Part shown: positions 23,901 through 56,000 of the stretch, piece after piece | How positions within the stretch are numbered: position 1 is the first letter of the stretch | Layout of the letters: every line of letters starts with the position of its first letter | Assembly (NCBI GenBank): GCA_033675265.1 | Contig: JAUJYZ010001275.1 | Span: 88,029-152,028 of the forward strand | From: Actinostola sp. cb2023 | Taxonomy: Eukaryota; Cnidaria; Anthozoa; Actiniaria; Actinostolidae | Direction of reading: 5' to 3' | Length of the DNA stretch: 64,000 bases | The notes under the pieces: generated by a model | The model's input: only the letters and a program-made list of their open reading frames with translations | The model's database searches: none | What the model was told of the DNA's origin: nothing | Made by a program: the position numbers and the translations under genes

Positions 23901-26900
23901 TGGATGGGAAATCAGTTCATGACCCACATTACATACAGATATATTCAATGTTCTCGTAGTTTTGAAGGTATATGAGCTATTTAACTAAGATCCTACAAGT
24001 CTGCATAAAAAGGTCGATGATTTGACGGTGTTATTTGAGAGTTTTAATTTCCCAGAATTCCTTTTGGTCATAGCTTTCATGATTTTCAACCCGACAACGA
24101 TTATGCAATTAGCTATTTACAATCCTCCATCCTCTCTCCCAATCAACTTCGTTCTGTTTCTAACTTATCTAACTGATGTTCCATAATTATTGATGATACT
24201 TTTTCCGTAGAGTGAGCGCGGTGGCAAGGCCAAGGTTGATGTCTACGGTAGGTGTCTCCGGCTCACAATAATTTGTAATAATTTGTAATCGAACTCCCAT
24301 AGACTCGCAGGGTAAGGAGAAGCCACGGGAATTTATAAACCAGAATACCATGCTATAAAATGCGGTAAAGTTAAATGTACTTTAACACAAAAGCGACTGC
24401 TCTAAGCTGTACGACAGTAGGTTATTGGACATACACACTTTATCTGGTCACGTTAGTCGTTATTTTACCGCAAGACACCCGTGTAAATATATGTCCTTCC
24501 AACGTGACAGTTCAAACATATAACATACTAAAATGTGACAGTTAAAGGAAAAAGGAAAAATAAAAAAGGAAAACATTTCCGTTTGTCATGCAGACACATA
24601 TATAAAGTGGCGACGTGCCTTCCAATCAGCCCTCCTTCTCTTTGATTGATTGATCGATTGATTAGTGGGTGGGTGGATTGACTGATTGATCGATTGATTA
24701 GTGGGTGGGTGGATTGATTGATTGATTAGTGGGTGGGTGGGTGGGTGCATTAACTGATTGATCGATTGGTTAGTGGGTGGACGTATTGATTGATTGATCG
24801 ATTGATTAGTGGGTATATGTATTGATTGACTGATCGATTGATTAGTGGGTGGATGTATTGATTGATTGATTGATCGATTGATTAGTGGGTGGATATATTG
24901 ATTGACTGATCGATTGATTAGTGGGTGGATGTATTGATTGATCGATTGATTGATTAGTGGGTGAGTGGATTGACTGATTGATCGATTGATTAGTGGGTGG
25001 GTGGATTGATTGATCGATTGATTAATTGGGTGGATGTATTGATTGATTGATCGATTGATTAGTGGGTGGGTGGATTGATTGATCGATTGATTAATTGGGT
25101 GGATGTATTGATTGATTGATCGATTGATTAGTGGGTGGGTGGATTGATTGATCGATTGATTAATTGGGTGGATGTATTGATTGATTGATCGATTGATTAG
25201 TGGGTGGGTGGATTGACTGATTGATCGATTGATTAGTGGGTGGATGTATTCATTGATTGATCGATTGATTAGTGGGTGGGTGGATTGACTAATTGATCGA
25301 TTGATTAGTGGATGGGTGGATTGACTGATTGATCGATTGATTAGTGGGTGGGTGGATTGATTGATTGATTAGTGGGTGGGTGGGTGGGTGCATTAACTGA
25401 TTGATCGATTGGTTAGTGGGTGGACGTATTGATTGATTGATCGATTGATTAGTGGGTGGATGTATTGATTGATTGATCGATTGATTAGTGGGTGGGTGGA
25501 TTGACTGATTGATCGATTGATTAGTGGGTGGGTGGATTGATTGATTGATTGATTAGTGGGTGGGTGGGTGTATTGGTTGATTGATCGATTGATTAGTGGG
25601 TGGATGTATTGATTGACTGATCGATTGATTAGTGGGTGGATGTATTGATTGATCGATTGATTAGTGGGTGGGTGGATTGACTGATTGATTGATTGATTAG
25701 TGGGTGGATGTATTGATTGATCGATTGATTAGTGGGTGGATGTATTCATTGATTGATCGATTGATTAGTGGGTGGGTGGATTGACTAATTGATCGATTGA
25801 TTAGTGGATGGGTGGATTGACTGATTGATCGATTGATTAGTGGGTGGATGTATTGTGATTGATCGATTGATTAGTGGGTGGGTGGATTGACTGATTGATT
25901 AGTGGGTGGGTGGATTGATTGATCGATTGATTAATTGGGTGGATGTATTGATTGATTGATCGATTGATTAGTGGGTGGGTGGATTGACTGATTGATCGAT
26001 TGATTAGTGGGTGGATGTATTCATTGATTGATCGATTGATTAGTGGGTGGGTGGATTGACTGATTGATCGATTGATTAGTGGGTGGATGTATTCATTGAT
26101 TGATCGATTGATTAGTGGGTGGGTGGATTGACTAATTGATCGATTGATTAGTGGATGGGTGGATTGACTGATTGATCGATTGATTAGTGGGTGGGTGGAT
26201 TGATTGATTGATTAGTGGGTGGGTGGGTGGGTGCATTAACTGATTGATCGATTGGTTAGTGGGTGGACGTATTGATTGATTGATCGATTGATTAGTGGGT
26301 GGATGTATTGATTGATTGATCGATTGATTAGTGGGTGGGTGGATTGACTGATTGATCGATTGATTAGTGGGTGGGTGGATTGATTGATTGATTGATTAGT
26401 GGGTGGGTGGGTGTATTGGTTGATTGATCGATTGATTAGTGGGTGGATGTATTGATTGATCGATTGATTAGTGGGTGGATGTATTCATTGATTGATCGAT
26501 TGATTAGTGGGTGGGTGGATTGACTAATTGATCGATTGATTAGTGGATGGGTGGATTGACTGATTGATCGATTGATTAGTGGGTGGATGTATTGTGATTG
26601 ATCGATTGATTAGTGGGGGTGGGTGGATTGACTGATTGATTAGTGGGTGGGTGGATTGATTGATCGATTGATTAATTGGGTGGATGTATTGATTGATTGA
26701 TCGATTGATTAGTGGGTGGGTGGATTGACTGATTGATCGATTGATTAGTGGGTGGATGTATTGATTGATTGATCGATTGATTAGTGGGTGGGTGGATTGA
26801 CTGATTGATCGATTGATTAGTGGGTGGGTGGATTGATTGATTGATTGATTAGTGGGTGGGTGGGTGTATTGGTTGATTGATCGATTGATTAGTGGGTGGA

Positions 26901-29900
26901 TGTATTGATTGACTGATCGATTGATTAGTGGGTGGATGTATTGATTGATCGATTGATTAGTGGGTGGGTGGATTGACTGATTGATTGATTGATTAGTGGG
27001 TGGATGTATTGATTGATCGATTGATTAGTGGGTGGATGTATTGACTGATTGATCAATTGATTAGTGGGTGGGTGGATAGACTGATTGACTGATCGATTGA
27101 TTAGTGGGTGGATGTATTCATTGATTGATCGATTGATTAGTGGGTGAGTGGATTGACTAATTGATCGATTGATTAGTGGGTGGGTGGATTGACTGATTGA
27201 TTAGTGGGTGGGTGGATTGATTGATCGATTGATTAATTGGGTGGATGTATTGATTGATTGATCGATTGATTAGTGGGTGGGTGGATTGACTGATTGATCA
27301 ATTGATTAGTGGGTGGATGTATTGATTGATTGATTAGTGGGTGGGTGGGTGTATTGATTGATTGATCGATTGATTAGTGGGTGGGTGGATTGACTGATTG
27401 ATCGATTGATCGATTGATTAGTGGGTGAATGTATTGATTGATTGATTAGTGGGTGGGTGGGTGGATTGGTTGATTGGTCGATTGATTAGTGGGTGGATGT
27501 ATTGATTGATTGATTGATTAGTGGGTGGGTGGATTGATTGACTGATCGATTTCTACTTTAGATGAAGACGGCATATCCAGGGAACATCCATTTTACAAGC
27601 TTTTGGGTGATAAACCTGGAGAAAAAGGGGTGAGGAAAATATTAAATAAAAACATATGTTGTCTTTATCACACTAAATTTGTGATTTTTATCAAGATGAA
27701 AAATATCCGAAATCGGTTAACGTTTTGTTCCTCAAAACAACGATCGATTTAAAATGAGACCCATAGGCGCCTGCACCTTAAGATATCCACTTGGTTTAGG
27801 ACACTATGGGACCATACATTAAAGGGGAACTGAAGACAAAATTTATTTTCTCAAGAAAGTTAGATATGACTTATATTAGCATTACCTGAGTATTAATTTT
27901 TGCAAATCTTTCTTAGATATCATCATAATTTCAAATATTTTTGTTTGTTACGTCGTTTATGGGGAATATTAAAATCCGTTCACCACATTTTCTCGGGTAC
28001 AAGAAAATACAATGCACTTATAATTACTCTATATTGTGACTGCATTTTCCCTTGGGATAGGTGACGTCAGACATGGGGAATAATTACTGAAGTGAGCCGC
28101 GCTCAATTCAGCGGTAATCCATGTCTTTAATTTTTACAATTCAAACTCAAGTGTCTTCTCCATAAAAATAAAAACAATTGGAAATTCACTTAGAAAATGT
28201 TTGTTCACAACATTCTCTTTGTTTCTATTTAAAGATAAATTTAGGCTTCAGTTCTCCTTTAAGTGTTTTGTTGTAACTCTCAACTCAAATATAGAACTTT
28301 AGACTTGAATTTCTTCTTCTGTTCTCAATGCGAAACGTTTTATCGCGGACATGACTGCAAATTCTCCGCGGAGTTAATGAGTTTTGTTCCATGACACGTG
28401 ACACGTTCTTGACCAATCGAAAGAGCCGCTTGAGTTGAGGGGTATAATAATAAATACTTAATGACTGGTCCCGAGGGAAACAGGTAAAGTAGTATAGCCG
28501 GAGTCAAAATGATACCACCTCCCTCTGGGAGCCTCCCCGAGAGCTCGGACAGTCCCAGAGGGGTTTAAAAGCTGGCTTAGAAATTTCAGCCAAAAAACCT
28601 CACTACGCGCCCCTCTCGGTTTGTCACTGGACCTAGAAATTCCACACCGACTGCCCGTTTGTGTTTTGATGTTGTTGTGGGCGCGCTTCGACGACAACGA
28701 GTCTTGGGCGATTGCAAGGACCGCTTGTTTGCCCGTCAAACGAGTAACTTCGCTGTTCAAGGCTGCCACAACGGCAGGTAGTCGAGCCACCCAGGTAACC
28801 GACCTCTGACCCTCGGAGAGCAGCATCTCCTGGGCGTATTGGTGTCCAAACAAGCGCTCGGACGGCGTTCGATTCCAACGCTCGACAATTGCTTGGTCTC
28901 GATGGATGTCAACATGCCCCCTTCGGATGAGGCCCCGTGTTTCTCGAGCAGCGCGGAAACCGCGCCCATGAACTCTCGCCCGGGGTCGATCTGGAGCAAC
29001 TTTGGCCAGTCCAGAGGGCTTCGCTTGTAGATCCTTTCGAGAACGGCCGCGAACTCTATGCTCTCTTTCGTAGCCAGAGGCTCAGCCTCTTTGTAGCGCC
29101 AGGCAACGTCGACCAAGGTCAACGCGTACTTGTATAGCTTTCGACCCCGTCAAGAGCGATAGTGGGGCAAGAAGAGCAGATCGGCTTGGTGGACCTCGTT
29201 CGGCATCGTGACGTCGAAACGCGGCCGCAGCACATGTTTCGGCGCTGGGAGGTAGATCTGCCACAAGGCCTGCTTCTCGGGCCACGCCCGAGCAACATCT
29301 TCGGAGACAGCAGCCGCGGCAGCGAGATGCTTTCCCGCTGCGAGCCCTTTCCAATAGCCCTGTGGGCTGTAGTATATGGCTGAGAGTTTCGACATGTTGC
29401 ATGTTTTTGTCGCGATCCGAGTCTAACAGGCCCGAAAAATTCGGGCTGCTTACAGAGCCTTCGAAATCACCCATGCCCCGGCGAGCCCGGCGCTCGAAAA
29501 GTGCTCGAGCCATTCCCCGAGGCGGGGTAGCAAACCGCGCGGTATCGCTCATATTGAAGCGAAAGCCTGGTTAATCGCCTTTTTTAAACACTGGTAAATT
29601 CTGAAACACGCCTCCCCAAACACAGGATCCTCCCGCATATGCTCAGCGATACGCTCGGACATGCAGGTAAAGCTCGTTTGATCCTCCGGCGGTGGGTGCT
29701 CAATATCGGTCATTGTGAGGAGATTCGTTTCGTTCTATCACAGACGGTAGCGACTGTCTAATAGCCTGTGCGCTTTCCGCTGGAGAACTGCCAACACCTC
29801 TTTTCGTGAGTGCTAGCTGTGACAAGGGGGAGAGTCTGGTGTTTGCGAGCGGCCCGCGGGAACACGAAAATGGCCAGCCCGAAAATTCGCGGAGGAAGGC

Positions 29901-32900
29901 TTACAGAACCTTCGAAATCACCCATGCCCCGGCGAGCCCGCCCGCCCCAACGAAGACCAGTTCGCCAGTCCTCTTGGCCCGAGAGGGTTTGTAGCAGTTC
30001 GACCACCTAGGCTCGGCTCCGACACTCGGTTCAAGGTGCGCCCGAGCATACAAGTCGAGCGCCTTGTCCGCGTCGCGCATGCCGGCTGCGGCCTGCTGCC
30101 GAGCGATCGCTCGTTGTTCCTCCCAGTCGCGTCGCGCTTGTCTGGTTTTCTGATAGGCACCCAGGTCCGCCTGGTAGGACTCTCAAGGGCCTTGTTATGC
30201 CGCTTCCTCTCTGCCGCTCTCTTTTCCGCGCCATCCCCGCCCCGTTCGAGGTAGTGAACAGCGATTGACCCTCCGGAGAAAGCGGCGGCGTTAATGGCGG
30301 CCGACACCGCGATCATCACCAGCGCCGAGGCCATCTAGCAAGGAAATATCTTCTCCTTCTGTAGGTACGACCGAAGAGCAATGCCCGCAGACAGCGCATC
30401 GATCCAAAGCCGCTCGCGCCTCTTTGTTAATGGCGGCGAGCCTTAGTCCTGCCTTGACCTTTAGGTTTTTTGACCTTTCGCGGCCGAGCTTTCGGAAGGG
30501 GTGTGGTGACGTTGTCTTCAGGGGCTGCTTGGTCGCTCATCTTGTATATTGGAACTAGGTGCCATCTCTTCAACTCGCCGCTCCACATGGGTGCTTACAG
30601 TCATGGCAGAGGACGCGAACGCGAGAAAGGGTGACAGGCGGTTGGAGACGAGGAAGTGCGCGGAGCCGTTCGAGAGCTCTGTGGTGACTAATACGTCCTC
30701 TTGCAACTTTACAACCAGTGCTTCCTCGTTACACTTAAGCGATATCCAACATGTGGTAACAAAAATCCTAACATTTTACAAGCGACTCTGAGCACCCCAC
30801 CAATAGCCTGTTTTCGCAACCGTTGAGCAAATATGGCCTCGTATCTAGCGTGCATGCGGGAAACCTCGTCGTCCGACATGCGCTCTACGTCACCTAGTGC
30901 AAGTGGTTTCCCAAGGAACTCCACGGAAGTCCCCGCCGCCGCGAGGACGCGGAGGTTTTCCCGCTGCAGCGAAGCCGGTGTGGTGTCGCTGGTGGGCTTG
31001 TCGACCCCAGCCTCGGCCAATACTTCGTCCAAGAGGTCAGTCATTTTTTATCGAGGTGGGGGGTATCTCCAATTCGCAGCCGAACGGGTAACGCAGCGCA
31101 AAGCAATCTTGCCAAGCGCCGCCCTCTCTTCGGAGGAAATCCCTGCTCCATAGTTCTCCCAACGCATATCTTTGGCCGAGCTGGTGTAGAACGCCACAAC
31201 TGCCGCGACGTTTTCGCGCAAGGCTTTTGCCACACTCGAATACTGCTGTGTCAATAGCCAAACGCTTTGATGTCGGTGTCTGCCCGAGAAGGCGAGGCGA
31301 ATGACCTCGGAGGACTACCGTTTGACATCCTTGGCAAATGCGCAGTCGTCGAGGATAAACAAAGTCTCGCCCTCATCGTAGAATTCAGAACACAGCTGCA
31401 AGAGCTTATCTAACTCGCTCTCGTTGGAGGCGTCAGGCATGAATGCGATGACATCGGGATCGCCCTTGGCAAAGCCTTTGTAAGTCGTGTTGTAGGCGAG
31501 CGTCGGACGGATCAAGACGATATGGTTGAACTTGCCGCGCAGAGACCCTCGAAGGGTGACAACGACATAGCAAGACTTGCCGCACCCCTTGGGGCCGACG
31601 ATGAGCATGTGTCCGGGGGGATCCATTACTTATACAACCTCTCCTCCCCTAGTTCAAATGCGGCCTCGGACAGGATGAACAAGTGGAGATTGCAGTTGCC
31701 GGTACCCCCCGAGCGGTGGATGCGATACTGAATGTTTTCCCCAGCTCCTTGAGCCTGGCGACCGTCTCCGTGGACGGTATGGTACCGAGCAGCACGCAGG
31801 TCCATAAACATCGCATACTTGTCCACGGCGAATTTGGCGGGGCGAACTGCATCCTTCCCCAAGAATCATTCGGCGCCAGACAAGGCCGCTCTCCAGAGGT
31901 CGCTCGGGAGCATCCCATCCGGGTAGAGGACGTTGAGCTGCCCATCGAGATCAAACTCCACCTTGGTGATGCCGGGATCGACAAAGGCCTCGCTGTCCCG
32001 TCCTCCCGCGAGGAAGGGGGCAACGAAGAGCCCGAGGACGCCAACGAAACTCTTGCGTTGGATCTGGATGGTGTCCGACAGGAGCGTCTTTGTTGCTCGA
32101 TCGAAGGGGATCGTGGCGTGGTGGACGACGTGGTTGTACACATTCCGAGGTGGCGTCGGGAGATCGACAGGGTCGTCCGGTCGGAGGACCTGGTACTCCA
32201 GGCGAATGTCGGACAATTGATATGACCCCACCTTCGTCGTGTCGTACCCGACCACCACATCCTTTGCAAGGGCAAGGGTCAACTCGATGCGAATCTGGGG
32301 GAGGTTGGCGGTCGGGAGAGCCCCGTGGTTGCGAAACAGCTCGAGGGCTCCACTACCGACCAGTGGGATGCGTTATTTCGGAAAGGTGTTGGTGAGGGCG
32401 ACGTCAGCTGCGACGCTGTTTTTGTCGCCAGAAGCGGAACGGTGCTTGTTGACCTCCGCGGTCTGGATGCCCTGCTCCACGAGTTCGCTCCGCTCTTCCG
32501 CCGATCGCCACAGATCGCCACAGATCGCCACAGATCGAAAGCCAAGGATACCAGAGATAGTTGGTGGGCGCGAATGCGACGACGCGTGGGGCACCTCTCA
32601 GAAACTGTCCGCAATAAATTATGGGATTCGCGAGGTGACCAAGAGATGTGGCGTGGAATGCGCGAGGAATATATCGAGATGAGGGAGAACCCCAAGGAGG
32701 GAGAGCAAGAAGACCCGCTGGTGGTTACCGCCCGGGATAAGCTTCACCGATTATTCCCAGCCACAGCCGATCACACGGAGGACTTCCCTCTCACCAACGC
32801 TCCCGATCACGGCATCGAGATACGGGTCCGAAGCAAAAAAGGGGGGTGGTCACAATCTCAAAAGCTGTTCACCAAAGAGGGCGCGATTCGGGCTAACGTA

Positions 32901-35900
32901 AAAAATCTTTGGGGGTTCAACCTCGCCACATCTCCGGCCGAGCTCGTGGAAGAGAACGATGCTCAAATCCAAGCAAACGTGACGACAAACCGGGCAGATA
33001 ATATCGCCTTGTCCGAACCCCATATCAGCGAAGCTGACGAGGCAGTCATCAGCGAGCGGGTGGAACAACGAGTGGAGGAGAACGAAGCACTCGAGCAAGA
33101 GAACGCGACTATTGAAGAGCACATGACTCTCAAGGAGCGCGTTAAACGGATTTTCAAAAAATACGGGGTGATGGTCCTTGGCGTTGCCCTTGCGGCAGGT
33201 GCGGTAATTGGGGCCATCGTGGAAGTCTTAACCAAACAGCTCGCCGCGGTGGCGCGAGGTTATGGGAACGAGCTGAAGACGATCGGGAAAAAACTCGGAC
33301 AGCTTCTCCCGGGCGCCATCGCCGCGATTGCGAGCTTCTTGTTTCGAACGGCCGGGGAGACAATTGGCTTCCTCGCGAAAAACGCGTGGCTATTGATCGT
33401 AGCGGGCGTCGTTTGGCTCGTTGAACGAACGAAGAAGGCTCGCTAACGAAACGCCCACCAGCCGATCCCAGCGGCGAGAAGCCCAACTGTGGCGAGATTT
33501 GTTTCGTGAGCCCCCAGCTTCGATGGCTGTGAAGCGATGTGTGGCTTCGTCTGAGCGACATGTGGCTTCGCCTGTGCCGCGGGCTTCGTTGGCTGTGGCT
33601 TCGCAACAACAGGCTGTGCCCCCACCATCGGAGCTGTATGTTCAGGAAGACGGCGGAACACCTCGTTGTTAACACCGTCGTTAATGCCGAAGTGCATCGA
33701 TGGGGTCGTGCGCTTCAACCCGTTGTTCTAACCGAAGACGCTCTCACGGTTGATCACGAGATGGCTAGGGAGAAGCCACAGCCCCGGGGATATCGCGAGG
33801 TCCAAACGGGTTCTCCCGTCGATAACCGTTCTCTGGAATCGTCGCACGGAGGATGGGATAGTTTCTTTGAGCGCATCCTCGAAGAGCGATGCAAATACCC
33901 GCTGGGTCTCGACAGCCCCTCCGGAAAGCCTTTTATCGACGATGTTTGTACGAGTGCTCGCCTGTGCCACGACAACGGAATAGACGAAACCCTCGATACT
34001 TCGATTCAACCGCCCAAGTCCAACTTTTGTTAGACCAAGCCCCCTTTTTGGACAAAACCAGTTATACTGCGCCCGGCTCTTGTGAGTCGACGTGTAGTAG
34101 GCCCCTCGCCACAGCACGCCATACTCGTCGGATTCCGTGCTCTGACCCTTGAATCGCATGTCGGGAGGATACGATAAGCCAAACTCCCTGCAAAGGGCGT
34201 GTAAGCCGGCCTCGGAGATGTTGTTTGTTCGGAAATGGAGGGCATCCTCCCAAGGTGGAGAACAACCCAGCTGAGTCAGTATCTGCCGAACGGTGAAGAG
34301 GGTGTGAAAGCGTAGGAAGCCTGCCACCTGCGTATCCGGCTCTAGATGGTTCCATGCCACGCCACAACCTGCCGTCGCGCACCACACCGTAAGGTTGAGC
34401 TGCTGCGACCAGAGATGAAGGTCAGGACCGCTCAGCCACGTACTAACCTCTGACACTGTCGAGGTGCTTGGCGGTGTCTCTTGAAAGGGGTCGGGGAGGT
34501 GAATGGAGAAGGACTCCTGAGGTTTATGCCGAGCTCTTTCAGGGTAAGGTCCGCGTCGGCGGCCGGATAAGGATATCGTCCCTCTTTTCGGAGAGAGAAT
34601 GCCTGAGGAAACCTTGGGGGTGGTTCCCAGGGCGTCCCAAGAGCGTTTAGAAGCGCTTTTTCGATCTCGGGGTCGTCGTATTGGTGTATCCTTTCCCCCG
34701 CCCCGATCCTCCCAACGAAGACATCATAGCCCATTCCTCGGTAGTTGAAAGTAACGAACGTGGGGCTGAAGGAGAATTTCGATACGGCCGTGTGAGGATA
34801 TGCCTTCAGGAACAGCTCTCTCGTTTCAACCATGTTGAAGCCGTATAAACAACCCCGTATCTACTTTCAAAATGGTTGTCCTGTTCCTTGAAAGCGCTTC
34901 CGCCGACTTCGTCGTGACCCTGGAGAGCCCCATCTCCTATCCAAGGTGGCTCCTCCTCCACAGCGTCAGTGTGCCCCAAACCCGTGTCCTCCGCGAAGAG
35001 GGGAAAATTCTAACAGAGGTTCGCGGCGCCAGTGAAAAGGGTGAAAATGAGTTCAAGGACCTCACCATTCAACCGAAAGCTCCCCTTCTAACCATTCCGG
35101 CTGGTTACACCCTTTCGAGTGTCCAAGCAGCAATCTCTCTAGGTACTCCACCTGCCCAGATCGTGGCTTCGAAAACCGGGTACACCCTTGTGGTGGCCCC
35201 CGGCGCCAGCCCCAACAAGCCTCTACGACAGCTTCTGGGAATCTCCGAGGCTGCGAGTGGAGAATCGTTAGTTATAAACTGGCCCGCAGTCGAGAGTGCA
35301 TGGCTCCATTGTGACCTTGTGGACGTCGAGAGTGTTGCCCAAAAACGAGAGGACACACACGTCACAAAACGCGCGGCTATCCTAGGTGGGGTAGCTGGAA
35401 ATGGGAGCAACAGGTTGACCCTTAAAAAAACACACACCCCATTCGGGTTCGAGCCAGGGCTGTTGCTCGCGTTCACAACATCCACTTCATCCACTCATCC
35501 ACGGGTGAGGGTATGTAACATGGCGAGTGATTCTATGTACGAGACCGGTGGTATCTACCCACAGCTCCAAGCTGTCGCCCCGGGCGCTGCTTCGCAAGAC
35601 TTCCGACTGAAAGCTGTTGCCGATGTCCAGATGGCCATCGAGACCGAGCTCACTACGAGCAGGTTTTGAAAAAGTATAAACGAGCCCGATCGGGGCTCAC
35701 GCAGTGCGCGTTCGTGACTGGCAGTGTGACAGTCGCTCTGTCCGGCGGAAGCCTCGCCAGTGCTCTGACCGGTTTCAGGCTCGTTGTGGGGGTTCCCCTA
35801 GCCGGGGTTGCAACAATCCTCGGGCTCGTGTCGGGCAGCTGTACAGTTGTTGCTCAGCGGTTGGAGGGCAAAATCTCGAAGCACGAACGAACCACGACGC

Positions 35901-38900
35901 TCGCGAGAAGTTCGCTGTCGACCGTCATCGACCTCGTCTCGAAGGCTCTCCACGACGGCCGGATCTCGATCGAGGAATTCTCTTTGATCTCTTCCGAGCT
36001 GCAGAAGTTTCGGCAACAAAAGGCCGACATTCGAGCAAAACCTGTTGTTGCGACACAGGAAGCCCAAGCGATCCTCGGCGAAACGCCGGCCGAGATCGAA
36101 AAACGGATTCGAGGAGAGCTTTTAAACAGACTAGAATCCGAATGAGCTGCGAAAAAAATATCGGGGGTGTTTTCCTTTCATTTGAGAAGATAAAAAAAGC
36201 TACTCCGTAGCGGAGTCGAACACCGGACCTCTCGATTCAAAATCCGTCGTCTAAACCACTCGATCATGGTGCCACTAGACAACTTCCGGCGACATTTTAG
36301 GGTTTTTAATCCGGTGTCTCGCAAAAATGGTAATTCATATAAAAGACTAACTCTCCCGCCTACGTCAATGTCTCAACGTTGTGGCCTAGTGGTTTAGACA
36401 CCTGTCTCGAGATCTGAGGGTAATCTCGGGGCGCGTGTTCGACTCCGCTCGACTGCGGGGTTGAGATCCTCGACATATAGCGAATCCCCTCCGCTATATG
36501 CCGTTGAAGACCGGCAGTCCTTCGAGACCTATGTAAAACCGGTCGGAATAGAAATTCGAGAGATCGAGATGGCACTCGTAGAGGCAAATGTGAAATGAAA
36601 TTGGAAATTCGAGAGACCGCGATGGTACTCGGAGAGGCAAATGAGACCCAAAGAGAACCGGCCGACGACAAAAAAACTCACTAGGGAGAAGCAAAGTGGC
36701 TGGCATGAATGAAAGTGGCTAAAAGTCCCTAGTGGGTTTCTGGTGGGCCCACCAGTTTTTTTCTTCTTCCTAGTGATAATAATAATAATAAACTTTATTT
36801 TACAAGGGAAAAACATATTACAGCTTCAGCTGAAAAACTTATGGCCCTTCTAATCTAAAAATATAAATATAATCTTAAAAAATATATATATATATATATA
36901 TCCTAATATCTATCCTAATCTAAAACCTAATGCTAATATATACATATGACATAATATTGATAGATTCATAAAATATAAAATTTATAAAATTTAATCGACT
37001 ATGAAATGATCAATTCCTTCATACTGGTTAATTATAAAATTACGAAAAGAATTCTTAAATAAGCGATTTTTTCTTTGAGGTCCTTAGTTGCTGGGGATTT
37101 CGATTGCCGCCAGTCGCGCAAATTCCCTTTGAAACATCCTCTGATCGCGATGAATGAGTTTCCGTTTTTGTTTCCCGTATCCACAGAGCCCACAGAGCTC
37201 GAGCGAATTGCACACCCCCCTACCACAAACCCGACACGGTTTCGTGCAAGATTCATTGCGCATGATGGCCAGATGGAGGCCGCAGTACTTCCACATACAC
37301 CTCCGTCCGCAGAGCTTTGTTGAGCTCAAAATCAGCCACTGACATGAATCCTTACCTGTGGGCATACTGTGGCAAGTTTTGATATACTCGATATATCGGA
37401 GGGTCTAAATGTGAGCCCATATCCCCGCATCGAAAAAAGATGCGCACAACATGTAATCAGAGCCATCTCTTCTTCAAGCGCTTTGTCCTGTGGACGCCCC
37501 TCCGGGGCATACATTACGAATTCCTATGGAGTCTTGTAATATAAGTGGTCCGTCTCATGGTGAAGCCCCTCGCTCAAACAGCGTTGGCAGAGCATTAGAC
37601 GATAAGAGCACCGGCGACATAGATAGCAGTCAAGTCCGCAATCCTTGCAGGTGAGATAGAATTGTCCGTAGAACGCCGCTCGAGTGATAAGCTCACGCCG
37701 TCTGCAGAATGGCGCCCTTTCGATCGAAGACTTAATAAAGCGCCACCCCCTCTCAGATCGGGCGCGGACAATATCCCGCCAGCCCAGCCCGAGTTCTTGG
37801 AGATAGAAATCTGGGAGCCCTGACTGGAGCCCAAGATCAGTCGCCAGCACCACCTTACGAGCCAGCGATACGAGCGGCTTAACGGGGCCGGTGAGAGGCG
37901 CCTCATGGCTGATGATTTCGTAGTTCTTCTTCCAAATCAATAGTTGCATAGATGTCGGCATACTGACTATCCGTCGATATGCTGTATATACTGCTGTCGA
38001 TATGCCTTATATACCCACTTGTCTAATATAAATTTCACGCGCGTGCCCGTTGTCGTCAAAGCGCGCCCACAACAGCATCAACACACAAACGGGCAGTCGG
38101 TGTGGAATTTCTAGGTCCAGTGACAAACCGAGCGGGGCGCGTAGTGAGGTTTTTTTGGCTGAAATTTATAAGCCAGCTTTTAAACCCCTCTGGGACTGTC
38201 CGAGCTCTCGGGGAGGCTCCCAGAGGGAGGTGGTATCATTTTGACTCCGGCTATACTACTGGTAATTTTGTTTCCCGAGAATCTCAATGTTTTCCGAGAA
38301 GTCGAAGTTGTTATATCCCCATAGTCAAACACTGAAAAAAAAATTAATAATAAATAAATAATAATAATGCCATTGTTGTTGACAACGGCGCCACAATTTA
38401 TATTCTCCATCGGTTTTGACCTGATCACTTGCGTTTATTCCCCTCTCACGCTTCTATCATGTGAACTTAACGCCCGCGCGGGACGCGCCCGCCACGTGAC
38501 GTGCTCTCGACCAATGAGAAAACAAGTTTGACTATGGTTATATAACAATATCCGCCATACCATGCCATTATTAAGACATGTGCTTTTTCATCAGAATGAC
38601 GGTGACTACAATACATTCACTAAAACCCTTCTCAGGTAAGCATCGATGTTATGAACATGTGTCATACCAAATATGGACAAAACAGCAAATAATAAGGATT
38701 AATGGTCTGTAAACAAGGCTGAAGAATGTTTGCAAATACCTTAGACTATGTCACGTGTTGTTATTTGCGACACTATTAGCGTAAACATGGAGAAACAACT
38801 GGGAAACATAAACTTTGTGTGCTAAATTCACTTAAGGCCCTGTTACACGCGCACTTTTTACTCGGGCACTTCCGGAAGAAGCCCGAGTTATAAATTGCGC

Positions 38901-46598: not shown

Positions 46599-47435
46599 TT
46601 TTCGGCGTGCATACAGTTCTGGTAATCGACGAGTTATTTGTGATCGATCGCGAAAATACTATCCATCACAAAATGTCGGTCGACTAAGAAAAACGTCTTC
46701 AATCAAAAAACGAACGAGCACAGAATCTCGGTCGACTAAGAAAAACGTCTTCAATGAAAAAACTAACGAAAACAGAATCTCGGACGACTAAGAAAAGCTT
46801 GTTCCTTCAACAAACTGCAGCGATCAGTTTTTGTGCACAATACAGCTTTTTTGCGACAAACCAGGTTTTTGTCACTAACCGAATTTTTGTGACTGAACGA
46901 ATTTTTTTGTGGTGTGGAAAGGGTTTTCGGCGTCGATACAGTTCTGGTAATCGGTGAGTTTTTTGTGATCGATGTCGAAAACACTATCCATCAAAAAATG
47001 TCAGTCTACTAAGATAAACGTCTTCAATCAAAAAAACTATCGAGCACAGAATCTCGGTCGACTAAAAAAAACTTCTTCCTTCAAAAAACTGCAGCGATCA
47101 GTTTTTGTGCACAACAGCTTTTTTTGCGACAAACCCAGTTTTTGTCACTAACATAATTTTTGGGACTGAACGAATTTTTTGTGAACTACATAGTTTTTGC
47201 GGTGGGAAGAGTGTTCGGCGTCGATACAGTTCTGGTAATCGGCGAGTTTTTTGTGATAGATCTCAAAAATACTATCCATCACAAAATGTCGGTCGACTAA
47301 GAAAAACGTTTTCAATCAAAAACTAACGAGCACAGAATCTCGGTCTACTAAGAAAAACGTCTTCAATCAAAAAAACTGTCGAGCACAGAATCTCGGCCGA
47401 TTAAGAAAAACTTCTTCCTTCAAAAAACTGCTTTT
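46599..47435 (-). repeat. Complex satellite family S1, inverted block
   Basis: Contains AATCTCGGTCGACTAAGAAA and TTTTCGGCGTCGATACAG-like text: the reverse complement of the array at 50001-64000. About 840 bp, bounded on the right by the AACCGGTT array. Confidence 0.85.
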
Positions 47436-50000
47436 ATAAACCGACCAACCGGTTTTTGAATCCGCCCAAACCGGTTCAGCTGGTTCTTCAACCGCTCAAA
47501 CCGGTTTTTGAAACCGCCTAAACCGGTTTTACTAGTTTTTGAAACCGCCCACACTGGTTTCTGAAACCCATCAAACCGATTTTTGAAACTGACCAAACCG
47601 GTTTTACTGGTCATTGAAACCCACCAAGCCGATTTTTGAAACTGACCAAACCGGTTTCAGTGCTTTTTGAAACCGACCAAACCGGTTTTTGAATCCGCCC
47701 AAACCGTTTTTTGAAACAACCCGAACCAGTTAAGTTGGTTTTTAAACCGCTCAAGCCAGTTTTTGAAACCGCCTAAACTGGTTGATTAGTTTTTGAAACC
47801 ACCCACTCCGGTTTCTGAAACCCACCAAGCCGGTTTTTGAAACTGACCAAACCGCGGTTTCAGTGCTTTTTGAAACCGACCAAACCTGTTTTTGAAACCA
47901 CCCATACCGGTTTTTTTAAACCATCCGAACCAGTTAAGCTGGTTTTTAAACCGCTCAAGCCGGTTTTTGAAACCGCCTAAACTGGTTGATTAGTTTTTGA
48001 AACCACCCACTCCGGTTTCTGAAACCAACCAAGCCGGTTTTTGAAACTGACCAAACCGGTTTTACTGGTCATTGAAACTGTCCACACCGGTTTCTGAAAC
48101 CCACCAAAGCGGTTTTTGAAACTGACCAAACCGGTTTCACTGCTTTTTGAAACCGACCAAACCGGTTTTTGAATATGCCCAAACCGGTTTTTGAAACCAT
48201 CCGAACCAGTTAAGCTGGTTTTTAAACTGCTCAAACCGGTTTTTTAAACCGCCTAAACCTGTTTCACTAGTTTTTGAAACCGCCCACACCGGTTTCTAAA
48301 ACCCACCAAACCGATTTTTGAAACTGACCAAACCGATTTTACTGGTCATTGAAATCCACCAAACCTGTTTTTGAAACCATCCAAACCGGTTTTTGAAACT
48401 GACCAAACCGATTTTACTGCTTTTTGAAACCGACCAAACCGGTTTTAAATCCGCCCAAACCCATGTTTGAAACCATCCGAACCAGTTAAGCTGGTTTTTA
48501 AACCGCTCAAACTGGTTTTTGAAACCGCCTAAACCTGTTTTACTAGTTTTTGAAACCGCCCACACCAGTTTCTGAAACCCACCAAACCGGTTTTTGAAAC
48601 CGACCAACCGGTTTTTGAATCCGCCCAAACCGGTTCAGCTGGTTCTTCAACCGCTCAAACCAGTTTTTGAAACCGCCTAAACTGGTTGATTAGTTTTTGA
48701 AACCACCCACTCCGGTTTCTGAAACCAACCAAGCCGGTTTTTGAAACTGACCAAACCGGTTTTACTGGTTATTGAACCGCCCACACCGGTTTCTGAAACC
48801 CACCAAACCGGTTTTTGAAACTGACCAAACCGCGGTTTCAGTGCTTTTTGAAACAGACCAAACCTGTTTTTGAAACCACCCAAACCGTTTTTTTTAAACC
48901 ACCCGAACCAGTTAAGCTGTTTTTTAAACCGCTCAAGCCGGTTTTTGAAACCGCCTAAACTGGTCGATTAGTTTTTGAAACCACCCACTCCGGTTTCTGA
49001 AACCAACCAAGCCGGTTTTTGAAACTGACCAAACCGGTTTTACTGGTTTTTGAATCCGCCCAAATCATTTTTTGAATCCGCCCAAACCGGTTTTTGAAAC
49101 CATCCGAACCAGTTAAGCTGGTTTTTAAACCGCTCAAACCGGTTTTTGAAACCGCCTAAACCTGTTTCACTAGTTTTTGAAACCGCCCACACTGGTTTCT
49201 AAAACCCACCAAGCCGATTTTTGAAACTGACCAAACCGATTTTCCCTGTCATTGAAATCCACCAAACCTGTTTTTGAAACCACCCAAACCGGTTTTTGAA
49301 ACTGACCAAACCGATTTTACTCGTTATTGAAGCCGACCAAACCTATTTTTGAAACCACCCAAACCGGGTTTTGAAACCACCCGAACCAGTTAAGCTGGTT
49401 TTGAAACCGCTCAAGCCGGTTTTTGAAACCGCCTAAATTAAACTGGTTGATTAGTTTTTGAAACCACCCACTCCGGGTTTCTGAAACCAACCAAGCCAGT
49501 TTTTGAAATTGACCAAACCGGTTTTTGAAACTGACCAAACCGATTTTACTGGTTGTGGAAGCCGAAAAAAAACTGTTTTTGAAACCGACCAAACCTGTTT
49601 TTGAAACCACCCAAACCGGTTTTTGAAACCACCCGAACCAGTTAAGCTGTTTTTTAAACCGCTCAAGCCGGTTTTTGAAACCGCCTAAATTAAACTGGTT
49701 GATTAGTTTTTGAAACCACCCACTCCGGGTATCTGAAACCAACCAAGCCAGTTTTTGAAATTGACCAAACCGGTTTTACTGGTCATTGAAGCCGTTCACA
49801 CCGGTTTCTGAAACCCACCAAAACGGTTTTTGAAACTGACCAAACCGGTGTCACTGCTTTTTGAAATCGACCAAACCGGTTGTTGAATACGCCCAAACCG
49901 GTTTTTGAAACAACCCGAACCAGTTAAGCTGGTTTTTAAACCGCTCAAACCGGTTTTTGAAACCGCCTAAACCGGTTTTACTAGTTTTTGAAACCGCCCA
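47436..50000. repeat. AACCGGTTTTTGAAAC satellite array S2
   Basis: Units of about 20-24 bp (AAACCGGTTTTTGAAACC then GACC/GCCC/ACCC), arranged in larger variants marked by CGAACCAGTTAAGCTGGTTT (47725, 47924, 48203, 48476, 48904, 49104, 49383, 49633, 49915). Open frames arise from the repeat. Confidence 0.95.
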
Positions 50001-53000
50001 CACTGAAGACGTTTTTCTTAGTCGACCGAGATTCTGTGCTGGTTAGTTTCCACCGCAAAAGCTCTGTAGTTCAAAAAAATTGGCTCAGTCACAAAAATTG
50101 GGTTTGTAAAAAATCTTGGTTAGTCGCAAAAAAGCTGTATTGCACAAAAACTGATCGCTGCAGTTTTTTGACTGAAGACGTTTTTCTTAGTCGACCGAGA
50201 TTCTGTGCTGGTTAGTTTCCACCGCAAAAACTCTGTAGTTCAAAAAAATTCGCTCAGTCACAAAAATTGGGTTTGTGAAAAAATCTTGGTCAGTCGCAAA
50301 AAAGCTGTATTGCACAAAAAAAACTGATCGCTGCAGTTTTTTGACTGAAGACGTTTTTCTTAGTCGACCGAGATTTTTTGTGCTATATAGTTTCCGACCG
50401 CATCTGTAGTTCAAAAACTCGCTCATCACCAAACCACAAGTGTATCGAAAAACTGATATAACCCTTAGTCCTGTGCTCGTTAGTTTGTTGCAAAAACTAT
50501 GTATTTCACAAAAAATTCGTTTTTTGAAGGAAGAAAATTCGGTTAGTCGAAAAAATTCTTGGTTAGTCGAAAGTGTTTTGCACAAAAAAAAGACGTGTTT
50601 TTCTTAGTCGACCGACATTTTGTGATATATAGTATTTTCGAGTTCGATCAGAAGAAACTCGCCGATTACCACAAGTGTATCGACGCTGATAACCCTTGCC
50701 ACAGCAAAAACTATGTAGTTCCCAAAAAAATTCGTTCATTAACAAAAATTCGGTTAGTGAAAAAACTTGGTTAGTCGCAAAAAAGCTGTATTGCACAAAA
50801 ACTGATCGCTGCAGTTTTTTGAAGGAAGAAGTTTTTCTTTGTCGAACGAGATTCTGTGCTCGTTAGTTTGTTGATTGAAGACGTTTTTCTTACTCGACCG
50901 AGATTCTGTGCTGGTTAGTTTCCACCGCAAAAACTCTGTAGTTCAAAAAAATTCGCTCAGTTTTTTGAAGGAAGAGTTTTTCTTACAACAAAAATTCGGT
51001 TAGTGAAAAAAACTTGTAGTTTAGTCGCAAAAAAGCTGTATTGCACTGTATTGCAAAACTGATCGCTGCAGTTTTTTGATTGAAGACGTTTTTCTTAGTC
51101 GACCGAGATTCTCTGCTCTTAGTTAGTTTGTTGATTGAAGACGTGTTTTCTTAGTCGACCGATATTTTGTGATAGATAGTATTTTCGAGTTCCATCAGAA
51201 GAAACTCGCCGATTACCACAAGTATATCGACGCCGAAAACCCTTTCCACAGCAAAAACTATGTAGTTCACAAAAAAATGCGTTCATTAACAAAAATTCGG
51301 TTAGTGACAAAAACTTGGTTTGTCGCAAAAAAGCTGTATTGCAAAAAAACTGATCGCTTCAGTTTTTTGTTGAAGGTTCTTCTTAGTCGACCGAGATTCG
51401 TTCTTCTTAGTCGACCGAGATTCTGTGCTCGTTAGTTTTTTGATTGAAGACGTTTTTCTTAGTCGACCGAGATTCTGTGCTCGTTAGTTTGTTGATTGAA
51501 GACGTTTTTCTTAGTCGACCGACAATTTGTGATAGATAGTATTTTCGAGTTCGATAAGAAGAAACTCACCGATTACCACAAGTGTATCGATGCTAAAACC
51601 CTTTCCACAGCAAAAACTATGTAGTTCACAAAAAAATGCGTTCATTAACAAAAATTCGGTTAGTGACAAAAACTTGGTTAGTCGCAAAAAAGCTGTATTG
51701 CACAAAAACTGATCGCTGCAAGGAAAAGTTTTTCTTTGTCGAACGAGATTCTGTGCTCGTTAGTTTGTTGATTGAAGACGTTTTTCTTAATCGACCGAGA
51801 TTCTGTGCTCGTTAGTTTGTTGATTGAAGACGTTTTTCTTAGTCGACCGAGATTCTCTGCTCGTTAGTTTGTTGATTGAAGACGTGTTTCTTAGTCGACC
51901 GAGATTCTGTGCTCGTTAATTTTTTGATTGAAGACGTGTTTCTTAGTCGACCGACATTTTGTGATAGATAGTATTTTCGAGTTCGATAAGAAGAAACTCA
52001 CCGATTACCACAAGTGTATCGACGCTAAAACCCTTTCCACAGCAAAAACTATGTAGTTCACAAAAAAATTCGTTCAATAACAAAATTAGGTTAGCGAAAA
52101 AAACTTGGTTAGTCGCAAAAAAGCCGTATTGCACAAAAACTGATCGCTGCAGTTTTTTGAAGGAAGAAGTTTTTCTTTGTCGAACGAGATTCTGTGCTCG
52201 TTAGTTTGTTGATTGAAGACGTTTTTCTTAGTCGACCGAGATTCTGTGCTGGTTAGTTTCCACCGCAAAAGCTCTGTAGTTCAAAAAAATTGGCTCAGTC
52301 ACAAAAATTGGGTTTGTAAAAAATCTTGGTTAGTCGCAAAAAAGCTGTATTGCACAAAAAACTGATCGCTGCAGTTTTTTGACTGAAGACGTTTTTCTTA
52401 GTCGACCGAGATTCTGTGCTGGTTAGTTTCCACCGCAAAAACTCTGTAGTTCAAAAAAATTCGCTCAGTCACAAAAATTGGGTTAGTGAAAAATTCTTGG
52501 TTAGTCGCAAAAAAGATGTATTGCACAAAAACTGATCGCTGCAGTTTTTTGAAGGAAGAAGTTTTTCTTAGTCGACCGAGATTCTGCGCTCGTTAGTTTT
52601 TTGATTGAAGACGTGTTTCTTAGTCGACCGACATTTTGTGATATATAGTATTTTCGAAAGAAACTCGCCGATTACCACAAGTGTATCGACGCCGAAAACC
52701 GTTTCCACAGCATAAACTATGTAGTTCACAAAAACATTCGTTCTCTAACAAAAATTCGGTTCTCTAACAAAAATTCGGGTAGTGACAAAAAACTTGGTTG
52801 GTTTTCGCAAAAAAGCTGTATTGCACAAAAACTGATCGCTGCAGTTTTTTGAAGGAAGACGTTTTTCTTAGTCGACCGAGATTCTGTGCTCGTTAGTTTT
52901 TGATTGAAGACGTTTTTTTGAAGTCGACGAGATTTTTTTTTTAGTCGACCGAGATTCTGTGCTCGTTAGTTTTTGTTGATTGTCGACGACGTTTTTCGTT

Positions 53001-56000
53001 AGTCGACCGAGACGTTTTTCTTAGTGTGCTCGTTAGTTTGTTGATTGAAGACGTTTTTTTTAGTCGACCGAGATTCTGTGCTCGTTAGTTTGTTGATTGA
53101 AGACGTTTTTCTTAGTCGACCGAGATTCTGTGCTCGTTAGTTTGTTGATTGAAGACGTTTTTTTTAGTCGACCGAGATTCTGTGCTCGTTAGTTTGTTGA
53201 TTGAAGACGTTTTTTTAGTCGTGATAGATAGTATTTTCGAGTTCGATAAGAAGAAACTCACCGATTACCACAAGTGTATCAATGCTAAAACCCTTTCCAC
53301 AGCAAAAACTATGTAGTTCACAAAAAAATTCGTTCAATAACAAAATTAGGTTAGCGAAAAAAACTTGGTTAGTCGCAAAAAAGCCGTATTGCACAAAAAC
53401 TGATCGCTGCAGTTTTTTGAAGGAAGAAGTTTTTCTTTGTCGAACGAGATTCTGTGCTCGTTAGTTTGTTGATTGAAGACGTTTTTCTTAGTCGACCGAG
53501 ATTCTGTGCTCGTTAGTTTTCACACCGCAGTAGTTCAAAAAAAACTCACAAAAAAGTTCAAAAAAAAAATTCGCTCAGTCACAAAAATTGGGTTAGTGAA
53601 AAATTCTTGGTTAGTCGCAAAAAAGCAGTATTGCACAAAAACTGATCGCTGCAGTTTTTTGAAGGAAGAAGTTTTTCTTAGTCGACCGAGATTCTGTGCT
53701 CGTTAGTTTGTTGATTGAAGACGTGTTTCTTAGTCGACCGACATTTTGTGATATATAGTATTTTCGAAAGAAACTCGCCGATTACCACAAGTGTATCGAC
53801 GCCGAAAACCGTTTCCACAGCAAAAACTATGTAGTTCACAAAAAACATTCGTTCTCTAACAAAAATTCGGTTAGTGACAAAAACTTGGTTTCGCAAAAAA
53901 GCTGTATTGCACAAAAACTGATCGCTGTTTTTTTTTTTTGAAGGAAGAAGTTTCTCTTAGTCGACCGAGATTCTGTGCTCGTTAGTTTGTTGATTGAAGA
54001 CGTTTTTCTTAGTCGACCGAGATTCTGTGCTCGTTAGTTTGTTGATTGAAGACGTTTTTTTTTTTAGTCGACCGAGATTCTGTGCTCGTTAGTTTGTTGA
54101 TTGAAGACGTTTTTTTTTAGTCGACCGAGATTCTGTGCTCGTTAGTTTGTTGATTGAAGACGTTTTTCTCTTAGTCGACCGAGATTCTGTGCTCGTTAGT
54201 TTTTTGATTGAACGTTTTTTTTTTAGTCGACCGAGATTCTGTGCTCGTTAGTTTGTTGATTGAAGAAACGTTTTTTAGTCGTCGACCGAGATTCTGTGCT
54301 CGTTAGTTTGTTGATTGAAGACGTTTTTTCTTAGTCGACCGAGATTCTGTGCTCGTTAGTTTGTTTGTTGATTGAAGACGTTTTTCTTAGTCGACCGAGA
54401 TTCTGTGCTCGTTAGTTTGTTGATTGAAGACGTTTTTTCTTAGTCGACCGAGATTCTGTGCTCGTTAGTTTGTTGATTGAAGACGTTTTTCTTAGTCGAC
54501 CGAGATTCTGTGCTCGTTAATTTTTTTTGATTGAAGACGTTTTTCTTAGTCGACCGACATTTTGTGATAGATAGTATTTTTTTCGAGTTCGATAAGAAGA
54601 AACTCGCCGATTACCACAAGTGTATCGACGCCGAAAACCCTTTCCACAGCAAAACTATGTAGTTCACAAAAAAATTCGTTCAATAACAAAAATTAGGTTA
54701 GTGAAAAAAAAACTTGGTTAGTCGCAAAAAAGCCGTATTGCACAAAAACTGATCGCTGCAGTTTTTTGAAGGAAGAAGTTTTTCTTTGTCGAACGAGATT
54801 CTGTGCTCGTTAGTTTGTTGATTGAAGACGTTTTTCTTAGTCGACCGAGATTCTGTGCTGGTTAGTTTCCACCGCAAAAGCTCTAGTAAAAAAAATTGGC
54901 TCTTGGTTAGTCACAAAAAGCTGTATTGCACAAAAACTGATAAGTTTTTTGAAAAGACGTTTTTCTTAGTCGAGTCACAAGTGTTTGTTTGTAAAAAATC
55001 TTGGTTAGTCGCAAAAAAGCTGTATTGCACAAAAAACTGATCGCTGCAGTTTTTTGACTGAAGACGTTTTTCTTAGTCGACCGAGATTCTGTGCTGGTTA
55101 GTTTCCACCGCAAAAACTCTGTAGTTCAAAAAAATTCGCTCAGTCACAAAAATTGGGTTAGTGAAAAATTTTTGTTTAGTCGCAAAAAAGATGTATTGCA
55201 CAAAAAAACTGATCGCTGCAGTTTTTTTTTTGACTGAGTTTTTTCTTTTTTCTTAGTCGACCGAGATTCTGTGCTGGTTAGTTTCCACCGAAAAAAACTC
55301 TGTAGTTCAAAAAAATTCGCTCAGTCACAAAAATTGGGTTAGTGAAAAATTCTTGGTTAGTCGCAAAAAAGATGTATTGCACAAAAACTGATCGCTGCAG
55401 TTTTTTGAAGGAAGAAGTTTTTCTTAGTCGACCGAGATTCTGCGCTCGTTAGTTTTTTGATTGAAGACGTGTTTCTTAGTCGACCGACATTTTGTGATAT
55501 ATAGTATTTTCGAAAGAAACTCGCCGATTACCACAAGTGTATCGACGCCGAAAACCGTTTCCACAGCATAAACTATGTAGTTCACAAAAACATTCGTTCT
55601 CTAACAAAAATTCGGTTAGTGACAAAAACTTGGTTTTCGCAAAAAAGCTGTATTGCACAAAAACTGATCGCTGCAGTTTTTTTGAAGGAAGAAGTTTCTC
55701 TTAGTCGACCGAGATTCTGTGCTCGTTAGTTTGTTGATTGAAGACGTTTTTTTTTAGTCGACCGAGATTCTGTGCTCGTTAGTTTGTTGATTGAAGACGT
55801 TTTTCTTAGTCGACCGAGATTCTGTGCTCGTTAGTTTGTTGATTGAAGACGTTTTTTTTAGTCGACCGAGATTCTGTGCTCGTTAGTTTGTTGATTGAAG
55901 ACGTTTCTCTTAGTCGACCGAGATTCTGTGCTCGTTAGTTTGTTGATTGAAGACGTTTTTTTTTGATTTGTGAAGACGTTAGTAGTCGACCGAGATTCTG

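Follow-up and report, generated by a model that had tools for sequence, protein, structure and literature searches.

A decayed Polinton-type integrated virus in a sea anemone genome that most likely lost its DNA polymerase gene by internal deletion

The DNA analysed here, a stretch of 64,000 nucleotides (the window), lies on contig C104 of the 424-Mb genome of the actinostolid sea anemone Actinostola sp. cb2023 and holds a 9.77-kb element at positions 28488-38260. A preliminary description, made from the sequence alone, had presented this element as a compact Polinton-like integrated virus without DNA polymerase and had offered two explanations, a distinct polymerase-less lineage or a non-autonomous deletion derivative. 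We are confident that the element is a decayed integrated virus of the Maverick/Polinton type whose DNA polymerase gene, PolB, was most likely lost by internal deletion, because several relatives in the same genome carry PolB right beside the integrase gene. We read the window copy as a fossil, of a kind already known, that underwent two deletions. It keeps both ends and the target-site duplication, and interior blocks that its siblings possess are gone. One deletion would have joined the integrase gene to the inner edge of the left terminal inverted repeat (TIR), removing the integrase tail and PolB, and the other would have taken away the beginning of the capsid gene and that of its divergent neighbour.

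PolB lies beside the integrase gene in relatives of the element

The host genome contains relatives of the integrase, the A32-type ATPase, the probable capsid gene and eight further open reading frames (ORFs) of the window copy. Searching it with the 265-amino-acid (265-aa) ORF gave 31 matches, namely the window itself and 30 on 20 other contigs, some of them weak (E up to 9.5e-4). The surroundings were read for 13 of the 20 loci outside the window, ten as 20 kb and three (L017, L019 and L020) as 3.3-3.5 kb. Most of the 13 loci are incomplete, and the parts that they retain mostly follow a common gene order: integrase, 143-aa, 180-aa, ATPase, capsid, 373-aa, 450-aa, 265-aa and 159-aa gene. This order is kept throughout in C674 and C330 and in large part in C852 and C483. 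The fullest relative read is C674, which has every gene of the common order plus PolB and a 106-aa-type gene, arranged as left TIR, 106-aa-type gene, PolB, integrase, two small genes, ATPase, capsid, the 373-, 450-, 265- and 159-aa genes, and right TIR.

An integrase gene was found in seven of the 13 read loci (C1171, C1187, C1506, C330, C483, C674 and C852), and PolB adjoins it in six of these seven, the exception being C1171. Where their arrangement was read, the two genes stand tail to tail, PolB being the one nearer the left TIR; in C1506, PolB lies beside an integrase remnant, and in C1187 it lies near the integrase. The PolB searches of the host genome were made with two types of PolB and scored part of the candidates (150 of 373 for type 1, giving at least 151 matches). 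A PolB match lies within 10 kb of the 265-aa gene at ten of the 20 loci (C852, C674, C330, C483, C1506, C1393, C1187, C1014, C328 and C1180) and was not found within that distance at the other ten (C1171, C17, C148, C777, C237, C115, C329, C225, C730 and C1082). Among the ten loci that combine the 265-aa gene with a capsid match within 10 kb, seven have a PolB match within 10 kb. Hence, the proposal of a distinct polymerase-less lineage is not supported by the relatives, and that of a non-autonomous deletion derivative is supported. The preliminary description had named as decisive whether intact relatives regularly carry PolB between the same neighbours; PolB is indeed present in relatives, though few of these are intact. 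The view that there is no PolB near the family was rejected, as the ORFs of C674 and C852 include PolB beside the integrase.

The PolB of C330 matches DNA_pol_B_2 above the cut-off (E 5.9e-10 and 1.8e-7) and is 82% identical to that of C852, and the PolB of C674 is 63-70% identical to that of C483. The latter shares 34-47% identity over short stretches with loci that match DNA_pol_B_2 (best 88 of 305 candidates in one search). The C483 and C330 proteins also both match one 1313-aa ORF of the viral contig L044 (E 6e-16 and 1e-61), an ORF that itself has no Pfam match. This contig was the single relative obtained in scans of IMG/VR, and its other long ORFs, chosen by eye as candidates for capsid and penton, had no match to the window family.

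Two probable deletions in the window copy

Homology of the window integrase to the 304-residue C674 protein ends at about residue 200, at the left TIR, with the last ~15 residues weak. At the same point the relatives continue with about 100 more integrase residues, followed by PolB. Seven PolB pieces, used as queries against 28.0-38.8 kb, detected no PolB remnant (best E 0.16), and the absence of PolB from the element, as first described, thus holds. The slot of the missing gene had been sought in the gap at 36.15-37.08 kb; it lies instead at the left TIR. A DNA search of the host genome with 28488-28760 as query returned a single occurrence of the junction between integrase and TIR, a count that could miss a strongly diverged junction because only about 60 bases of the query lie to the inside of the TIR.

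The other junction is at 32531/32532, where capsid homology (from residue 113 of the C674 protein) stands back to back with homology to the 373-aa ORF (from residue 31 of the C1506 protein). The sibling C148, whose 265-aa gene is 79% identical to that of the window, keeps the capsid start that is absent from the window and lacks the remainder of the capsid gene.

Features of the window copy are as follows.

28483-28487, left target-site duplication GGTAA (direct 5-bp repeat)
28488-28700, left TIR, first letters AGTAGTATAG
28701-29422, reverse strand, integrase (rve) remnant; in-frame stop at 29150, frame change at ~28.92 kb, C-terminal ~100 residues gone; abuts the left TIR (deletion junction 1)
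29904-30334, reverse strand, counterpart of a 143-aa C674 ORF by homology, in two frames, split at ~30182
30536-31044, reverse strand, counterpart of a 180-aa C674 ORF by homology, in two frames, split at ~30.73 kb
31048-31629, reverse strand, A32/FtsK-like packaging ATPase remnant (Pfam), in-frame stop at 31315
31626-32531, reverse strand, probable major capsid protein remnant, matching residues 113-415 of the C674 relative; first ~112 residues gone; in-frame stops at 31866 and directly above 32372
32531-32532, deletion junction 2; capsid gene and its divergent neighbour both truncated at their starts; short GATCGCCACA tandem repeat at the site
32532-33446, forward strand, homologous part of the "373-aa" ORF; N-terminal ~30 residues gone relative to C1506
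33443-34833, reverse strand, ~450-aa gene in 133-, 242- and 94-aa pieces; frame change at ~34.44 kb and in-frame stop at 33728
34872-35669, forward strand, 265-aa ORF, open; matches on 20 other host contigs
35666-36145, forward strand, 159-aa ORF, open; adjoins the 265-aa gene in relatives
37084-37404, reverse strand, 106-aa Cys-rich ORF; relatives at the equivalent end in C78 and C1393 but next to the left TIR in C483, C1506 and C674
37524-37961, reverse strand, 145-aa Cys-rich ORF, open; relatives only in C78 (85%) and C1171 (36%)
38048-38260, right TIR, last letters ACTACT
38261-38265, right target-site duplication GGTAA (direct 5-bp repeat)

The ends agree with the preliminary description: the TIR arms measure 213 bp, with five mismatches and one indel, they carry the (AGT)2//(ACT)2 end motif, and the 5-bp duplication GGTAA flanks them on both sides. 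GC content is 56-58% at 29-36 kb of the window, 42% at 36-37 kb and 50% at 37-38 kb, and 32-45% in the flanks (in steps of 1 kb, up to 28 kb and from 39 kb on).

The genes of the window copy have decayed

Damage to the reading frames, which had been overlooked, is widespread. Five in-frame stops fall in four genes (integrase, ATPase, the 450-aa gene and, twice, capsid) and frame changes in four (integrase, 143-aa-type, 180-aa-type and 450-aa), so that together they touch six. Recoding of the stops was rejected because they are of mixed type (TGA and TAG in one scan, TGA and TAA in the capsid gene).

Two of the families named at the outset were confirmed. The integrase is broken and reaches rve in Pfam with E 0.021, below the cut-off; its core is 77-79% identical to the integrases of C674 (5.2e-9) and C852, which are both above it. 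The ATPase matches Pox_A32 above the cut-off in the window piece (2.9e-5) as in C674 (3.5e-8). For the capsid-like gene the evidence is weak. Its 415-aa relative in C674 has a Capsid_N match in Pfam that is below the cut-off (E 0.017), the window piece and C852 have no Pfam match, and a profile of the family had no match in the PDB. From the C674 match, the place beside the ATPase and full-length homology to 84 listed genomic loci, we regard it as the probable capsid gene. A 130-aa protein (P0011) on a 1,101-base ENA contig shares 98% identity with the window capsid piece and has the same end point, which suggests that the broken window copy was sampled, or transcribed, in another place.

Other assignments had to be revised. 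The 242-aa ORF is one piece of the ~450-aa gene; the GenBank protein P0003 of Actinostola sp. cb2023 matches it at 99% over 77% of the ORF, and a profile of the 450-aa family gave matches at chance level alone (E 0.26 and up). An uninterrupted relative of this gene with 46% identity (P0006, 392 aa) is encoded on a JGI contig of 5,359 bases, and the element family may therefore be present outside the Actinostola genome. The 373-aa ORF is homologous to its relatives from about 32532 on, and its upstream part is without homology. The vertex role considered for the 265-aa ORF is not supported, as the ORF has no match in Pfam or NCBIfam and its AlphaFold model has a pLDDT of 33; structure prediction, as the preliminary description had advised, was uninformative in the two models made (pLDDT 39 and 33). 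In the Actinostola gene model P0001, the start of this viral gene is fused to a G protein-coupled receptor, likely an artefact of a gene model laid over a broken viral copy. Zinc binding by the 145- and 106-aa ORFs found no support beyond a Lar match below threshold for the 145-aa ORF alone (E 0.047); both are Cys-rich by eye. No replication protein was recognised among the ORFs of the window copy, and no significant Pfam match to a protease was obtained with 18 window ORFs and nine C674/C852 ORFs, a search that a divergent protease could escape.

Outside the element, a unit of 36 bp, with runs of TTGA and GTGGGTGG, forms a 2.9-kb array (GC skew ~0.8) to its left at 24642-27551. Satellite repeats of 52-53 bp, in two kinds and with nested larger periods of ~170-300 bp, extend in long tracts over positions 46667-63880.

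Differently deleted copies and a large population of relatives

Four further copies have AGTAGT-ended TIRs and 5-bp duplications.

C674, ~17.5 kb, duplication TCAGC; TIRs 97.7% identical over 219 columns; PolB shortened inside, integrase, ATPase and capsid
C483, 10,653 bp, duplication AATGA; PolB, integrase, ATPase and capsid; lacks the 373/450 block
C1506, 10,597 bp, duplication TGATC/TGACC with one mismatch; lacks integrase core, ATPase and capsid
C17, 13,376 bp including a nested 5.4-kb inverted-repeat insert, duplication CCTAA; lacks most of PolB through capsid

For C852 and C330, no ends came to light in the stretches examined. In C1506 (610309-620905, L037/L038) the 265-aa gene is partly duplicated in tandem, and the TIR extends into the 106-aa-type gene, so that a piece of that gene is present at both ends. 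In C674 (300477-300520, L041) the left TIR has its outer end repeated in tandem (~20 bp), and it is the outer copy with which the 5-bp duplication agrees.

A capsid search of the host genome, in which the best 100 of 346 candidates were scored and whose counts are lower bounds, listed at least 84 loci with full-length relatives at 38-41% identity, at least 79 of them without an inner stop. At least 45 of the 84 listed have a type-1 PolB match within 5 kb (median ~2.2 kb). This anemone thus harbours a large and apparently young Polinton population.

Two types of PolB occupy the same slot

C674 and C852 have capsids that are 89% identical and integrases that are 80-81% identical, and their PolB regions share 29-30%. 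Two PolB types thus occur in the same slot beside the integrase, one in C852 and C330 (L024/L042 and L031) and one in C674 and C483 (L029/L041 and L033), the pairs being those of 82% and 63-70% identity given above. By capsid similarity, C674 groups with C852, followed by C330 and then C483, an order at odds with PolB type. This conflict points to a swap of the polymerase between otherwise close elements, as far as sequence comparison can tell. C483 and C852 still have the first ~100 residues of the PolB region in common (56%), which hints that the exchange may have taken place inside or next to the PolB gene.

Discussion

Judging by the families of its genes, a full element would replicate through PolB, be packaged into capsids with the help of the ATPase and integrate through its integrase acting on the AGTAGT ends. 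The deletion at the left TIR could have happened before or after insertion; if before, movement of the shortened form would have needed enzymes of PolB-bearing siblings. We consider this special case of internal deletion, in which viral DNA suffered the deletion while replicating and the short form integrated with the help of full siblings, possible, if on the doubtful side. The window TIRs and 5-bp duplication are intact, and four of the five complete copies (window, C483, C1506, C17 and C674) lack gene blocks that differ from copy to copy, while C674 has a PolB shortened inside. Deletion after integration would look alike, however, and no junction is common to any two of the five. A still bolder view, that the slot beside the integrase is an exchangeable replication cassette, which in elements with nearly identical capsid and integrase modules holds either PolB type or none, and that end-intact, polymerase-free copies were natural satellites moved in trans by siblings with PolB, strikes us as rather unlikely.

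Several observations weigh against the loss of PolB by deletion from this copy. The closest branch of relatives (C148, C78 and C1171) is also one in which no PolB was found: C1171 retains most of the integrase (residues 1-276 of 304), past which no PolB match was found, and C148 and C78 are fragments that lack the integrase side. PolB may therefore possibly have been lost before this branch spread. Three of the ten loci with both the 265-aa gene and capsid (C115, C730 and C1082) have no PolB match within 10 kb, and C17, complete by its TIRs and duplication, holds an N-terminal PolB fragment only. The PolB pieces of C674 and C852 have no PolB match in Pfam, and in C483 one of four pieces matches DNA_pol_B_2 below the cut-off (E 0.0043); since none of these is above the Pfam cut-off, all three genes were named through homology. 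The PolB-free branch would also suit a lineage that had no polymerase of its own and replicated on a host or helper polymerase before it decayed, and the many PolB genes elsewhere in the genome, among them the type-1 matches counted above, are possible helpers. We nevertheless regard such a lineage as very unlikely, since the integrase breaks off at the TIR in the way expected of a deletion, its junction with the TIR was seen once in the genome, and PolB is present in more distant relatives (C1393, C1187, C674 and others). It is more improbable still that PolB was dropped by an assembly artefact or misjoin: the contigs do come from one draft assembly, but homologous sequence abuts on both sides at both junctions, and the duplication and both TIRs are present.

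Locating the PolB slot in siblings closes the claim of a polymerase-less capsid virus. The analysis further puts on record that an actinostolid anemone harbours a diverse Polinton family with PolB, in which several copies have kept their ends and lost different interior parts. The presence of two PolB types in one position, beside closely related capsid modules, offers a test bed for polymerase exchange in animal Polintons. By title or the start of the abstract we found no publication on an Actinostola Polinton family, which is no claim of its absence from print.

Vertebrate Mavericks have (AGT)2//(ACT)2 ends, TIRs of 46-1,447 bp, 6-bp target duplications and an intact size of 12.7-24.6 kb, and 96% of their loci are degraded (PMC8097293). 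The Actinostola elements resemble them in end motif, in a TIR length within that range, in rve integrase, ATPase and, in relatives, PolB, and in the prevalence of degraded copies. They differ in gene order and in their 5-bp duplications (window, C483, C17 and C674, and C1506 with one mismatch), and the window copy, at 9.77 kb, is shorter than those intact elements, lacks PolB and has no recognised protease. Polinton-like viruses without pPolB mostly lack an rve integrase and have another replication protein instead (PMC11071308). The window copy shares with them the lack of a standard PolB; unlike them, it has an integrase and no recognised replication protein.

Nematostella and Hydra Polintons belong to a set of 72 elements, 13 of which have split capsid genes (PMC4028283). 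They are like the present family, by description only, in their cnidarian hosts, in bearing capsid genes and in the splitting of these genes, whereas the window capsid has diverged so far that it has no significant match in Pfam or the PDB. Adintoviruses or meldviruses are animal DNA viruses with rve integrase and PolB, in which mixed Alpha/Beta pairings of hexon and PolB are described (PMC11071296). The window copy differs from them in lacking PolB; the two PolB types found in its relatives resemble these mixed pairings, again compared by description only.

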